Shown here piece after piece: positions 46,140 to 58,886 of a DNA stretch of 64,000 nt. This DNA comes from Lactobacillus xujianguonis (GTDB taxonomy: Bacteria; Bacillota; Bacilli; Lactobacillales; Lactobacillaceae). Each line of letters opens with the position of its first letter. The first letter of the stretch is position 1. The stretch is taken from positions 62,001 through 126,000 of the forward strand of contig NZ_ML136873.1 of assembly GCF_004009905.1 (NCBI RefSeq), written 5' to 3'. The translations under genes were made by a program, and so were the position numbers. The notes beneath the pieces were generated by a model. The model was not told the DNA's origin, did not search any database, and was given only the letters and a program-made list of their open reading frames with translations.

Positions 46140-46245
46140 TTAGTAAGTGAGAAACTTCTTTTTAATTAAAATATTTCTATGTGTTACACATGAAACATCT
46201 TGCAAAAAATTAAATCAGCGGTATGATTAAAACGTTAGTTGAATA

Positions 46246-46332
46246 GGCGATGACGTTCGCCATTAAGCGAGTAAAATCTGATGACGTCTACTATTGTGAG
46301 GGGCAGAGCCCCACTAATAGTAGACGTTTTTT
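46246..46332 (+). promoter_or_regulatory. Fluoride riboswitch (crcB motif) with terminator
   Basis: GGCGATGACGTTCGCC (46246-46261) then CTGATGACGTCTAC follow the crcB-motif consensus (GGCGATGG..GTTCGCC ... CTGATG..GCCT). The 3' segment GTCTACTATT (46286-46295) pairs with AATAGTAGAC (46316-46325), followed by T6: a terminator that overlaps the aptamer. The genes it controls are the two CrcB fluoride exporters. Fluoride should prevent termination. Confidence 0.9.
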
Positions 46333-55969: not shown

Positions 55970-56728
55970 CTAATTGGCAAAATATTGCAAGAGATCATCT
56001 TCAGTTAACTGCGATTTTTCCGGATTCTTAAGATCTAAGACGATGCGGCCACTATTTAAGATAATGGTACGATTGCCGTATTTTAAGGCGTCCTTTAATT
56101 GGTGGGTAATCATGATGCAGGTCAGGTGCTGCTTTTGGACCACGTCATTAGTAAGTTCTGAGAGTTCATGACTAGTATTGGGATCTAGCGCTGCGGTGTG
56201 TTCATCCAATAAGAGCAATTTTGGCCGTTTAATGGTTGCCATCAGAAAGCTCAAGGTTTGTCTTTGTCCACCAGACAAGTTGCCCACAAAGGTGTGCAGG
56301 CGATCACTTAAACCATTCGGAAGTTGAGCGGTTTCTTGTTTGAAAAAGTCCAGGTGTTGGTCCAGTCCGCGCAAGTGTAAGCCGCGCCGCTGGCCCCGTT
56401 TGGTAGCTAATAATAAGTTCTCAGCCACGGTCATTCTTGGAGCGGTTCCCATTTTAGGATCCTGAAAAACTTGGGCAATGTCTTTAGTCCGTTTAACTTC
56501 AGAGTAATTAGTGATGTCTTGCCCATCAAGCAAGATCTGGCCAGAAGTGGGCATTAATGAACCATTGATAATATTAAGCAAAGTCGATTTTCCGGCCCCG
56601 TTAGTTCCTAAGAGAGTAACGAAATCACCATCGTTTAAGGTCAAATTAATATCTTTCAAGATTCGTTTTTCTTCGGCGGTACCCGCATTAACCGTGGTAT
56701 TGATGTGTTTTAATTCAAGTTTACTCAT
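55970..56728 (-). CDS. ABC transporter ATP-binding protein (TrpXYZ-type)
   Basis: The 252-residue ATPase has Walker A LLGTNGAGKSTLLNI, signature LSGGQRQTLSFL and Walker B KLLLLDEHTAALD, where the usual Glu-Pro of the B motif is Glu-His, with the H-loop MITHQ. It is coupled by a 4-base overlap to the permease gene. The three-gene unit (substrate-binding, permease, ATPase) resembles tryptophan/tyrosine or purine-type importers of Firmicutes (PF04392 family substrate-binding protein). A leader with a Trp codon in a regulatory ORF supports Trp. Confidence 0.88.
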   Translation of the reverse strand: MSKLELKHINTTVNAGTAEEKRILKDINLTLNDGDFVTLLGTNGAGKSTLLNIINGSLMPTSGQILLDGQDITNYSEVKRTKDIAQVFQDPKMGTAPRMTVAENLLLATKRGQRRGLHLRGLDQHLDFFKQETAQLPNGLSDRLHTFVGNLSGGQRQTLSFLMATIKRPKLLLLDEHTAALDPNTSHELSELTNDVVQKQHLTCIMITHQLKDALKYGNRTIILNSGRIVLDLKNPEKSQLTEDDLLQYFAN

Positions 56729-57624
56729 GGCTTTTCAATTCCTTTCTTTAAGAGCTGCTTAATGTGGAATTTTTCTTGGAAGAGCGGCAACATCAAGCAG
56801 AGCGCTAAGATAATGGCGGAGATCAACTTGAAGTCGTTGGTGCTGAAGCCTAGCTGTAAGACTAAGAGTAAAACTAAGCGGTAAAGAATACTGCCGACCA
56901 CTACGGCGACAAGCCGAGCAGACAAGCTCAAGTTTTTACCATAGACAACTTCACCAATGATAATTGCTGCCAGACCGATAACCATGGTTCCAATTCCCAT
57001 GTTTACGTCGGCGTAACCGCCGTTTTGAGCCAAGAGCCCACCAGCCAGGCCGATTAGCCCGTTAGAAATCATTAAGCCGAGGATCTTCATGTTGTCGGTG
57101 TTAATGCCAAGCGAGCGCGCCATGGTTTCATTGTCTCCGGTGGCAATAAAGGCTTGACCCAGATCGGTATTTAAGAACAGGGCCAGCAGAACGACAACCA
57201 GAATGGCGATTAATAAGCCGATTACAATTGTAGGGAAGTTAGGTGGCAATTTAGCTAAAAATTTGCTGTTTAGTAAAGTGGCTTGGTTAAGTAAACCAAC
57301 ATTGGCTTTACCTAAAATTCGCAAGTTAACGGAGTAGACACCGGTCATGGTTAAAATTCCGGCTAAGAGAATAGGAATTTTTCCTTTAGTATAGAGCAGG
57401 CCAGTGAATGCCCCCGTAAGCATCCCGCCGATAAAAGCTAAAATGGTGGCAAGCAAAGGATTAACGCCATGCACTAAGGCGCTAACGCAAAGCGCGGCAC
57501 CGAATGGGAAGGTCCCTTCCACTGTCATATCGGGGAAGTTTAAAATTCTGAATGAAAGATAGAGGCCAAGGGCGAGGATTCCCCATAAGAGGCCCTGACC
57601 GATAGTCGAAGTTACTAAACTCAT
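56725..57624 (-). CDS. ABC transporter permease (TrpXYZ-type)
   Basis: The 299-residue integral membrane protein has eight or more hydrophobic segments in the branched-chain-type permease pattern (GALCVSALVHG, FSFRILNFPDMTVEG-like start, GLMISNGLIGLAGGLLAQNGG). It overlaps both neighbours by four bases, so the operon is translated as a unit. The substrate is inferred from the unit: probably an aromatic amino acid. Confidence 0.85.
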   Translation of the reverse strand: MSLVTSTIGQGLLWGILALGLYLSFRILNFPDMTVEGTFPFGAALCVSALVHGVNPLLATILAFIGGMLTGAFTGLLYTKGKIPILLAGILTMTGVYSVNLRILGKANVGLLNQATLLNSKFLAKLPPNFPTIVIGLLIAILVVVLLALFLNTDLGQAFIATGDNETMARSLGINTDNMKILGLMISNGLIGLAGGLLAQNGGYADVNMGIGTMVIGLAAIIIGEVVYGKNLSLSARLVAVVVGSILYRLVLLLVLQLGFSTNDFKLISAIILALCLMLPLFQEKFHIKQLLKKGIEKP

Positions 57625-58613
57625 TTAATGATCCGTCCTTTCTGGTGAGCAGCTTGCAAGATTTTATTAGGTAAGTGAATGTTTAATTGGCGAGCTGTTT
57701 TTTGATTAATCACTGTTTCATAGTGTTTGATCCGCTGGATTGGTAAAGTGGCAGGCTTTTTACCTTTGAGCACTTCGGCAGCCATTTTTCCGGTTAAGAT
57801 ACCCATGTCGTATTGACTAACGGAGCGGGTGGCTAAACCGCCTTCCTTGACCATGGTGTCAGCGGCAGGGAAGATCGGAATTTGAGCGGCATTGGTGGCT
57901 TTGAGTAGGGCCGCAAAGCCGGAAGCAATTGTGTTATCAGTTGGAACGTAAACTGCGTCAACTTTGCGTGCCATGGTTTGAGCAACTTGTTCAATATCAT
58001 TGGTGGAAGTGACCGTGTAGGTTTTAACTGTTAACTTGTCTTTTTCAGCTAACTTTTTAAATTCTTGATATTCGGCGGCGGAAGAATCGTCGCTAGAAGT
58101 GTAGATTACGCCGATGGTCTTTAAGTCGGGCATGATGGTTTTGATTAAGGCCAGTTGGGCGGCAATGGGTTGCTGGTCTTTCACACCGGTAACTTTGCCG
58201 CCGGGATGACGCAGCGATTTGACTAAGCCAGTGCCAATCGGATCACTGATGGCGCCCATAATGATGGGCGTATTGCTGTGCTCGTTAGCAAGTGATTGCA
58301 CGGCTGGGGTGGCAATCCCAATCGTTAAAGCAGCATGTTCATTGGTAAAACGATCACTCATTGATTTGAGATTGCTCTGATCATTCTGGGCATTTTGGTA
58401 ATCAATAGTAATGTTCTTGCCATTGCGGTAGCCTTCTTCAGCTAAGCCATGAATAATTCCGCGGTGGATTTGATCAAGAGCGGGATGACTCATGGTCTGC
58501 AAGATGCCGATGGTCGGCCGCGCTTGTTGGTCTTTACTTTGTTTTACTTCGCTAGCGAAGGCAACAATGAGAAAAGCGAAGAGCGCGATAATTGTCGTTA
58601 TCAGTCTTTTCAT
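57621..58613 (-). CDS. ABC transporter substrate-binding protein (TrpX-like)
   Basis: The 330-residue protein has an N-terminal membrane segment (about 5-22) without a lipobox, so it may be held by an uncleaved anchor. A two-lobe periplasmic-binding fold of the PF04392 type follows (TIGILQTMSHPALDQIHRGI, GISDP-like AISDPIGTGLV, VYVPTDNTIASG). GAGGAG lies upstream. It is first in the operon, behind a complex leader. The name TrpX-like rests on family, operon and leader together. Confidence 0.83.
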   Translation of the reverse strand: MKRLITTIIALFAFLIVAFASEVKQSKDQQARPTIGILQTMSHPALDQIHRGIIHGLAEEGYRNGKNITIDYQNAQNDQSNLKSMSDRFTNEHAALTIGIATPAVQSLANEHSNTPIIMGAISDPIGTGLVKSLRHPGGKVTGVKDQQPIAAQLALIKTIMPDLKTIGVIYTSSDDSSAAEYQEFKKLAEKDKLTVKTYTVTSTNDIEQVAQTMARKVDAVYVPTDNTIASGFAALLKATNAAQIPIFPAADTMVKEGGLATRSVSQYDMGILTGKMAAEVLKGKKPATLPIQRIKHYETVINQKTARQLNIHLPNKILQAAHQKGRIIK

Positions 58614-58636
58614 AATTTACTCCTCATAATAAAAAA

Positions 58637-58662
58637 AGCATTTCCGATTGCGGGAAATGCTT
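58637..58662 (-). terminator. Second leader terminator of the Trp-type ABC operon
   Basis: AAGCATTTCC pairs with GGAAATGCTT, followed by U7 on the minus strand, 24 bases before the substrate-binding gene. Confidence 0.85.
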
Positions 58663-58670
58663 AAAACAAA

Positions 58671-58696
58671 ACCCGCACAGTGATGGCTGTGCGGGT
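58671..58696 (-). terminator. First leader terminator-like hairpin
   Basis: Perfect 10-bp stem ACCCGCACAG / CTGTGCGGGT, with UUUUGUUUU after it on the minus strand. Confidence 0.8.
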
Positions 58697-58706
58697 AATT
58701 TGGTGT

Positions 58707-58825
58707 GAAGATTTACCAGCACAGATGCGATCTTGTGGGTCGCATCTGCACTTGCAGAAAACAACCCTAGTGCTGGTTTTGCCAACGAACGATCATTTTG
58801 AGTACTGCTAACATGGTAAATCTTC
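58707..58825 (-). promoter_or_regulatory. Leader-peptide attenuator region of the Trp-type ABC operon
   Basis: A perfect 11-bp inverted repeat (GAAGATTTACC at 58707-58717 and GGTAAATCTTC at 58815-58825) encloses the leader ORF. A 7-bp repeat (CCAGCAC 58716-58722, GTGCTGG 58770-58776) spans the ORF end, and a 9-bp hairpin CAGATGCGA/TCGCATCTG (58722-58748) lies between. Pairings share bases (58716-58717), so they compete. The ribosome binding site of the leader ORF lies in the outer stem. Confidence 0.7.
58767..58814 (-). CDS. Leader peptide MLAVLKMIVRWQNQH
   Basis: The 15-codon frame starts at ATG 58814 with AGGAAGA upstream and ends with TAG at 58767-58769. It has one Trp codon near its end (TGG, residue 11). 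It is placed between a complementary stem and two terminators, ahead of the substrate-binding gene: a typical regulatory ORF. A ribosome that waits at Trp would leave different RNA segments free than one that reaches the stop codon. It is not known to me as a described leader. Confidence 0.65.
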   Translation of the reverse strand: MLAVLKMIVRWQNQH

Positions 58826-58886
58826 CTTTCTGACTAAGTTAACTAGAATTTTAATTTTCTTTTTAAGAAAAGTCAACAGGTATAAG

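Follow-up and report, generated by a model that had tools for sequence, protein, structure and literature searches.

A candidate tryptophan leader-peptide attenuator ahead of trpX in Lactobacillales, with a match to the trpB motif in its 3′ half

In the Escherichia coli trp leader, the position of the ribosome on two adjacent Trp codons decides whether the antiterminator or the one terminator forms from four strands, and classical leader attenuators usually hold several or tandem regulatory codons, a feature that is not strictly defining. The leader described here, from Lactobacillus xujianguonis, would work in a similar way but has a single Trp codon, seven strands, two terminators in series and a lock on its ribosome-binding site (RBS). 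In Firmicutes, leader peptides have been published for histidine genes (PMC2965389, in the part available), and a 2008 survey tabulates Trp T-boxes on ABC transporters, in columns that are ambiguous in the portion available (PMC2494555). The Trp T-box of Streptococcus suis trpXYZ acts on the same transporter family, with the expected sign of regulation, but binds tRNA directly, without a leader peptide, according to the available part of its description (PMC9382623). The nearest described element is the trpB motif (Rfam RF04312; SRC-39-1). The available sections of its publication present it as a strong riboswitch candidate of unknown ligand, with more than 900 representatives and with an amino-acid-type ABC transporter gene or trpB downstream; they place an antiterminator in the right shoulder of the P1 hairpin and add that a classic attenuator cannot be ruled out (PMC11109978).

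The trpX leader and the trpB motif

The window (the whole stretch of 64,000 nt analysed here) carries on its minus strand the arrangement that the original prediction had read from the letters, a short ORF with a Trp codon, competing repeats and two terminators before a transporter gene, and that observation was upheld. Its main features are:

58848..58876, minus strand: promoter-like sequence TTGACT-17-TAAAAT, 10 of 12 consensus matches
58767..58814, minus strand: leader ORF MLAVLKMIVRWQNQH, 15 codons, with the stop codon included in the span; homologous leaders in 100 distinct sequences
58782..58784, minus strand: Trp codon, the proposed sensor; TGG in 100/100 distinct leaders and a Trp codon at 65/70 RF04312 loci
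58663..58696, minus strand: terminator 1 with its U-rich tail; stem 58696-58671
58631..58662, minus strand: terminator 2 with its U tail; stem 58662-58636
57621..58613, minus strand: trpX, Trp ABC transporter substrate-binding protein; NF041285, 477 bits
56725..57624, minus strand: ABC permease of the trpX operon; family matches below cut-offs only
55970..56728, minus strand: ABC ATPase of the trpX operon; matches below cut-off among the best 25 of 188 families

The ORF predicted to have 15 codons and one Trp codon was located at 58814-58767 (minus strand), preceded by the SD-like sequence GAAAGGAAGA, and the two terminators (58696-58671 and 58662-58636) stand ahead of the substrate-binding gene, which runs from 58613. 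The transporter is of the Trp type, as had been proposed, its TrpX scoring 477 bits against the NCBIfam TrpX equivalog NF041285 (cut-off 390). The leader region contains three terminator-like sites, one of which is the same stem on the plus strand, against a shuffle mean of 0.1, and its minimum free energy (MFE) is −80.3 kcal/mol (z −7.29), with 0/200 shuffles equally stable. The promoter-like site is weak evidence, because shuffles of the region yield 1.1 such sites on average.

The claim that this is not a described element holds for the leader ORF, which is absent from the available part of the published trpB motif description, but not for the 3′ half of the leader, which is a sub-threshold match to RF04312 (PMC11109978). 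Model positions 1-107 align to window positions 58752-58661 with 43.3 bits (E 4.7e-5), short of the gathering score of 59. The architecture of the family is present, with the P1 hairpin first, an intrinsic terminator next and a transporter gene (trpX) downstream, and the Rfam model covers the helix termed S4 below together with terminator 1. As published, in the sections available, the description of RF04312 lacks a leader ORF, arm A, S1, S2 and any coupling to a second terminator (PMC11109978), and our searches of the open-access literature turned up no paper that assigns it a Trp leader. At 18 loci of relatives, RF04312 passes in 3, falls below the gathering score in 9 and gives no match at E ≤ 0.01 in 6. 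Across the order, 54/325 genomes score above the cut-off and 177/325 match at E ≤ 0.001; in a phylum-wide draw 4/329 genomes match, two of them outside the order (G1365 and G1202).

Because the RF04312 model lacks the ORF, its loci were chosen as an independent test of the Trp codon; the sample comprised the 30 best and 40 picked loci, was not random and shared some genomes with the first leader set. An SD-ATG ORF with a Trp codon lies 15-75 nt upstream at 65/70 of these loci, compared with 0.65 in the block-shuffled control, and Trp-CAA is found at 55/70 (control 0.04). Other ORF codons are also common there (CAA at 60 loci, AGA at 42), Trp being the commonest. Among the five misses, the Trp codon is present at L255, where the ORF starts with GTG, and at L297, where an ATG start is lacking, while two loci carry Tyr/Phe codons in place of Trp (L299 and L306). 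The fifth miss, at a gene end (L292), looks like a chance match.

As judged by sequence comparison, the element is a real, order-wide Trp leader-peptide attenuator. Its 3′ half was in print before, as a candidate orphan riboswitch. New, to the extent of our searches of the open-access literature, are the leader, the link between both terminators by a chain with two registers, and the Tyr/Phe sister. A concrete answer is thereby proposed for that orphan: the signal would be the translating ribosome at a Trp codon.

Alternative pairings, covariation and geometry

The strands that take part in the proposed switch, and in the two repeats first noticed, are:

58814..58824, minus strand: S1 5′ arm, with part of the SD and the first start-codon base; pairs with 58708-58718
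58708..58718, minus strand: S1 3′ arm; shares 4 nt with the hub
58770..58776, minus strand: S2 5′ arm, last ORF codons; 99.4% of cells paired
58716..58722, minus strand: S2 3′ arm, within the hub; pairing in alignment columns
58760..58767, minus strand: arm A, its start 17 nt downstream of the first Trp-codon base; A:B duplex
58736..58743, minus strand: portion of arm B that pairs with A (S3); covariation, swap test, duplex
58740..58749, minus strand: portion of arm B that pairs with C (S4); covariation, swap test
58715..58730, minus strand: arm C, the hub; pairs with B (S4), the ORF end (S2) or D (antiterminator 1)
58687..58696, minus strand: arm D, terminator 1 5′ arm; pairs with C in the proposed ON state; C:D swap test
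58672..58677, minus strand: arm E, terminator 1 3′ arm; pairs with F in the proposed ON state; E:F swap test
58649..58654, minus strand: arm F, terminator 2 5′ arm and loop; E:F swap test

The first repeat, AAGATTTACCA at 58824-58814 with TGGTAAATCTT at 58718-58708, is the perfect 11-bp repeat described originally, and its stem does take in the RBS, through some of the SD bases and the initial A of the start codon. The second, CCAGCAC (58776-58770) with GTGCTGG (58722-58716), has the 7 bp assigned to it but ends just before the TAG stop codon (58769-58767) and does not enter it. The two repeats overlap by three bases, TGG at 58718-58716, where two had been counted, and the hairpin that follows measures 10 bp (58749-58740 / 58730-58721), not 9. 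The mutual exclusion of the two stems is supported by the hub bases that S1 and S2 share. Three pairings were absent from the earlier reading: the strand that follows the Trp codon with the 5′ arm of the hairpin (A:B; 58767-58761 / 58743-58737), the 3′ shoulder of the hairpin with the 5′ arm of terminator 1 (C:D; 58724-58715 / 58696-58687, one mismatch), and the 3′ arm of terminator 1 with terminator 2 (E:F; 58677-58672 / 58654-58649). Antiterminator and terminator helices are mutually exclusive.

The element is very probably a ribosome-mediated transcription attenuator that reads tRNA-Trp charging through a seven-strand chain and is ON at low charged tRNA-Trp. This reading draws on conservation, covariation, geometry and gene association, from which we infer stalling, the direction of the response, read-through and the transport function in this strain. 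The seven strands would adopt two registers, OFF being B:C, D:E (terminator 1) and F:G (terminator 2), and ON being A:B, C:D and E:F. With ample Trp, the ribosome would reach the stop codon and cover A, B:C would form and both terminators would fire. With charged tRNA-Trp scarce, the ribosome would stall on the single Trp codon and leave A, about 16 nt downstream, free just past its edge to capture B; capture of B would free C, C:D would disarm terminator 1, and the freed 3′ arm of terminator 1 would disarm terminator 2 (E:F), so that trpXYP would be transcribed. Serial terminators would thus be wired together via alternate pairing. S2, which joins the ORF end to C, and S1, which joins the leader RBS to the end of C, would act as guards that occupy C when the leader is untranslated. 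The idea of Trp leader attenuation of the transporter is therefore retained, but the decisive switch is probably the seven-strand chain and not the first and second repeats alone. Indeed, S1 versus S2 as a switch by themselves was considered and rejected: both are conserved, neither reaches the terminators, and they are kept here as guards.

The original prediction had called for an alignment of the leader across lactobacilli, and in it the repeats and the Trp codon are conserved and the repeats covary. The alignment columns of 27 leaders show covariation in S4 (B:C), S3 (A:B) and S2, with 98.4%, 84.3% and 99.4% of cells paired, respectively; strand B covaries with two partners, since S3 and S4 share it. 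In a cognate-swap test, the duplex energies of arms from the same leader were compared with those of arms exchanged between leaders (10,000 permutations), using 100 leaders and 38 representatives below 75% identity. S1, S2, S3 and S4 each gave 0/10,000 in both sets. The single leaders that beat the median swap number 74 for S1, 93 for S2, 76 for S3 and 100 for S4, of 100, and by this measure S1 and S3 are thus not evident in every leader. C:D could be compared in the 66/100 leaders where the search found a usable terminator 1, with −11.2 kcal/mol against −9.6 when swapped (0/10,000; 1/10,000 for 26 representatives), and E:F in 63 leaders, with −10.7 against −7.6 kcal/mol (0/10,000, also for 24 representatives); third terminators that the script found in or near coding sequence were left out. 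The negative strand pairs gave, per 10,000 for all leaders and for representatives, 3314 and 440 (U:C), 9891 and 8175 (A:V), 1688 and 8112 (A2:V), and 494 and 259 (U:B), and in the terminator set 760 and 2457 (C:E), 1819 and 6511 (D:F), and 5041 and 6776 (C:F). Two of these negatives, U:B and U:C (representatives), are not flat. In all, six helices, not counting the terminators, are more stable with arms from one leader than with exchanged arms.

The leader set came from 102 scanned loci, of which 101 matched and gave 100 distinct leaders after removal of a duplicate core and of two rows of alignment A2 that were antisense. The Trp codon is present in 100/100 and the next codon is CAA in 99, counts that are ascertained because the search model contains these bases. 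The window leader has an SD, a start, a stop and a regulatory codon of the matching amino acid; it holds one Trp, not the several or tandem regulatory codons of classical leaders, and in the set 83/100 leaders have one Trp codon and 17/100 have two. An SD-like sequence occurs in 93/100, the choice of start having favored SD presence, and 10-14 codons precede Trp in 83/100. One leader from the same genus (L084) appears identical to that of L. gallinarum (L002).

A ribosome with the Trp codon in its A-site ends about where arm A starts, by the textbook footprint. In the 78 aligned leaders, arm A begins at a median distance of 16 nt (range 11-20) from the first base of the Trp codon, and an A:B duplex of −4 kcal/mol or lower forms in 78/78; the stop codon lies 9-30 nt from Trp, and its correlation with the position of arm A is 0.34. 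We folded transcripts ending in the 5′ arm of terminator 1 with ribosome-covered bases masked. With one ribosome only, C:D pairing at Trp relative to stop is higher in 26/66, lower in 0 and unchanged (≤0.5 pair) in 40, and for the window leader equilibrium folding with a single ribosome at Trp did not yield the ON state. In its stepwise MFE structures A:B forms first unless the ribosome sits at the stop codon, S4 appears once the hub is transcribed, S2 and A:B coexist briefly when no ribosome is present, and all three ribosome states end in S1, S4 and both terminators. Single-ribosome equilibrium folding supports the switch weakly. With a second ribosome on the start site, at least 3 C:D pairs form in 52/66 leaders at Trp versus 15/66 at stop, C:D being up in 59 and down in 1; the start-site mask alone already gives at least 3 C:D pairs in 37/66. 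In these models, then, the ON state needs a second ribosome on the start site.

Moving the ribosome along the leader with the start-site ribosome in place, the peak of C:D is seen with Trp or the next codon in the A-site (mean 7.42), followed by a drop to 2.4-2.9 at codons +3 to +6. C:D is also up at codons −6 to −4 (36-41/66), which overlap the start-site mask, and at +7 and +8 (30 and 39 of 66), past most stop codons. Stalling at the stop codon was rejected as the signal because arm A tracks Trp, staying about 16 nt from it while the stop shifts (correlation 0.34), and because C:D is low at +3 to +6. A bolder version of the attenuator, which we offer as a tentative possibility, is an AND gate of two ribosomes that would topple the terminators one after the other, in a modular family of Trp or Tyr/Phe chassis. 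One ribosome would be held on the sensor codon while a second, on the leader start site, kept S1 open; the RNA would then read a ribosome queue and not a single stall, since the start-to-Trp spacing fits two stacked ribosomes. One chassis, with Trp or Tyr/Phe codons, would serve sister transporters, trpB and aro genes across the order.

Competing explanations

A single Trp codon is few for a classical attenuator, and other explanations were weighed against one. In TnaC, the ribosome tunnel senses the leader peptide, free Trp being the ligand, and sensing of a QLNxRW-Q nascent peptide in this manner, with free Trp and not codon starvation as the signal, would be the least improbable of the competitors, though we still judge it improbable. 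Residues before Trp are conserved, with Asn at −3 in 65/100 leaders, Arg at −1 in 64/100 and Leu at −4 in 46/100, the last by several synonymous codons (TTA, TTG, CTT); the QLNN stretch is common to the Tyr type (below), and the masked-ribosome scan agrees just as well with a Trp codon in the P-site (+1). Set against this, induction by free Trp has the wrong sign for an importer, and Gln at +1 is not universal at the RF04312 loci (W-CAA at 55/70). Moreover, Arg at −1 is CGT in 64/64 and Gln at +1 is CAA in 99/99, and these invariant codons therefore indicate a constraint on the RNA or the codon. That the trpB motif is instead a metabolite-binding riboswitch, as proposed, and the short ORF incidental, seems more doubtful again. 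It was published as a strong candidate, in the sections available (PMC11109978), and has strong hairpins and a terminator, but a Trp ORF accompanies 65/70 RF04312 loci compared with 0.65 in shuffles, the distance from arm A to the Trp codon is held whatever the position of the stop, alternative pairing accounts for the covarying strands, and in the sister family RF02863 both the codons (Tyr/Phe) and the genes differ.

A tRNA-Trp-binding T-box or T-box-like element is highly implausible here. It has the precedent of S. suis trpXYZ, and in the window the Trp codon and the next base (58784-58781) read UGGC, the T-box sequence quoted in the available text of the same source (PMC9382623), which is probably a coincidence; this leader, though, has an SD and an ORF, and T-box covariance models gave no match in the window at gathering scores and none in the leader up to E 10. 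Palindromes that are merely terminators or repeats without regulation are common enough in intergenic regions as far as terminators go, but with several mutually exclusive pairings both conserved and covarying, in tests run with negative controls, this last explanation is scarcely credible. The attenuator reading tRNA-Trp charging remains the preferred account.

Distribution, downstream genes and the Tyr/Phe sister

A covariance model, R1, built from 27 leaders matches 248/397 Lactobacillaceae genomes in 26/40 genera (E ≤ 0.01) and 94/395 genomes sampled across the order (E ≤ 0.001), and a second model in a class-wide draw matches 14/398 genomes, all 14 in the same order; the element reaches beyond the lactobacilli. 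Among 80 named TrpX loci, the leader was recognized in L. gallinarum, Ligilactobacillus equi, Levilactobacillus brevis and Lactobacillus sp. Sy-1, and a variant missed by R1 is present in Bombilactobacillus (L005); the other 75, mostly of 28-43% TrpX identity, were scanned just for Trp-containing small ORFs. At the window locus R1 also has an antisense match (E 0.007), the palindrome read backwards, and a weak match lies elsewhere in the genome of the window (C4:3373-3459, E 0.028).

A TrpX homologue lies downstream at 56/60 fetched loci, and the four exceptions have trpB (L187; 617 bits, cut-off 392), peptide-binding genes (L162 and L174) or a reverse transcriptase (L156). In a wider census, with a first gene called in 164/167 Trp-type loci from two locus sets that overlap in genomes, the 164 comprise 153 TrpX-kind substrate-binding proteins, 6 TrpB, 1 peptide-binding protein (L162, the seed itself) and 4 unclassified genes, namely L097, where the script skipped trpX, L174, and L156 with L235, which are one genome. 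The Trp-type leaders at L162 and L174 stand before binding proteins of the family-5 peptide type, a hint that Trp might be obtained by taking up peptides. In the genome of L156 and L235 (G118), a reverse transcriptase ORF (Pfam RVT_1) follows the leader at the place expected for trpX and probably belongs to a group II intron.

RF02863 was named in E. faecium, where the available part of the source treats it only as an sRNA; on Northern blots this sRNA_2410, of 195 nt, appeared as two transcripts (PMC5593968), a pattern that would be compatible with two terminators. We found a Tyr/Phe leader of the YYFSYFR kind at 56/56 RF02863 loci, 52 by pattern and four by reading (L309, L316, L317 and L348), a count that is partly ascertained because the match begins inside or near these codons; a start of the SD pattern is lacking at 9/50. 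RF02863 gives no match in the window at its gathering score, none in the leader up to E 10 and none in the genome at E ≤ 0.001. Like the Trp type, the sister has A:B / B:C pairing after the leader peptide, often shares QLNN and, at 46/50 loci (a count taken without a control), has an S2-like word pair, TTTAGCT with GGCTARR. It differs in its Tyr/Phe codons and in its downstream genes, which are aroE, DAHP synthase or a separate transporter clade. In the swap test on 36 distinct leaders of 41 parsed from 50 loci, where the windows for A and B overlap in part, A:B and B:C each gave 0/10,000, the median swap being beaten in 26 and 16 of 36; C:D had no swap signal (9266/10,000), both strands being nearly invariant.

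The first genes at the 56 Tyr-type loci are 36 substrate-binding proteins, 18 AroE and 2 DAHP synthases, one of each enzyme having been confirmed. In a quick tree of 184 substrate-binding proteins, subject to a long-branch warning, the 149 Trp-type and 35 Tyr-type proteins split at one branch with support 100, and shuffled labels need about 32.5 changes. Tyr-type proteins fall below the TrpX cut-off in 5/5 cases (332-373 bits) and Trp-type proteins above it in 2/2 (468-478). If true, the proposal predicts how much of Lactobacillales regulates Trp uptake, the aro genes and probably the uptake of Tyr/Phe.

Several neighboring arrangements were also seen. In other Lactobacillus genomes a Tyr-type leader precedes TrpX-like paralogues with about 40% identity to the TrpX of the window (L226, L227, L229, L230 and L231). 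Four genomes have a Trp-type leader with trpX and, about 3-4 kb further on, a Tyr-type leader before aroE, two of them found by reading (L223 and L306/L307) and two from match positions and first genes (G448 and G463). The window itself holds a fluoride riboswitch (RF01734) at 46237-46297 on the plus strand, at 45.2 bits, above the gathering score, and Ref68 (Lacto-3 RNA, RF02840) lies about 570 bases from the trpX leader of Ligilactobacillus equi (L003, 1753-1623).
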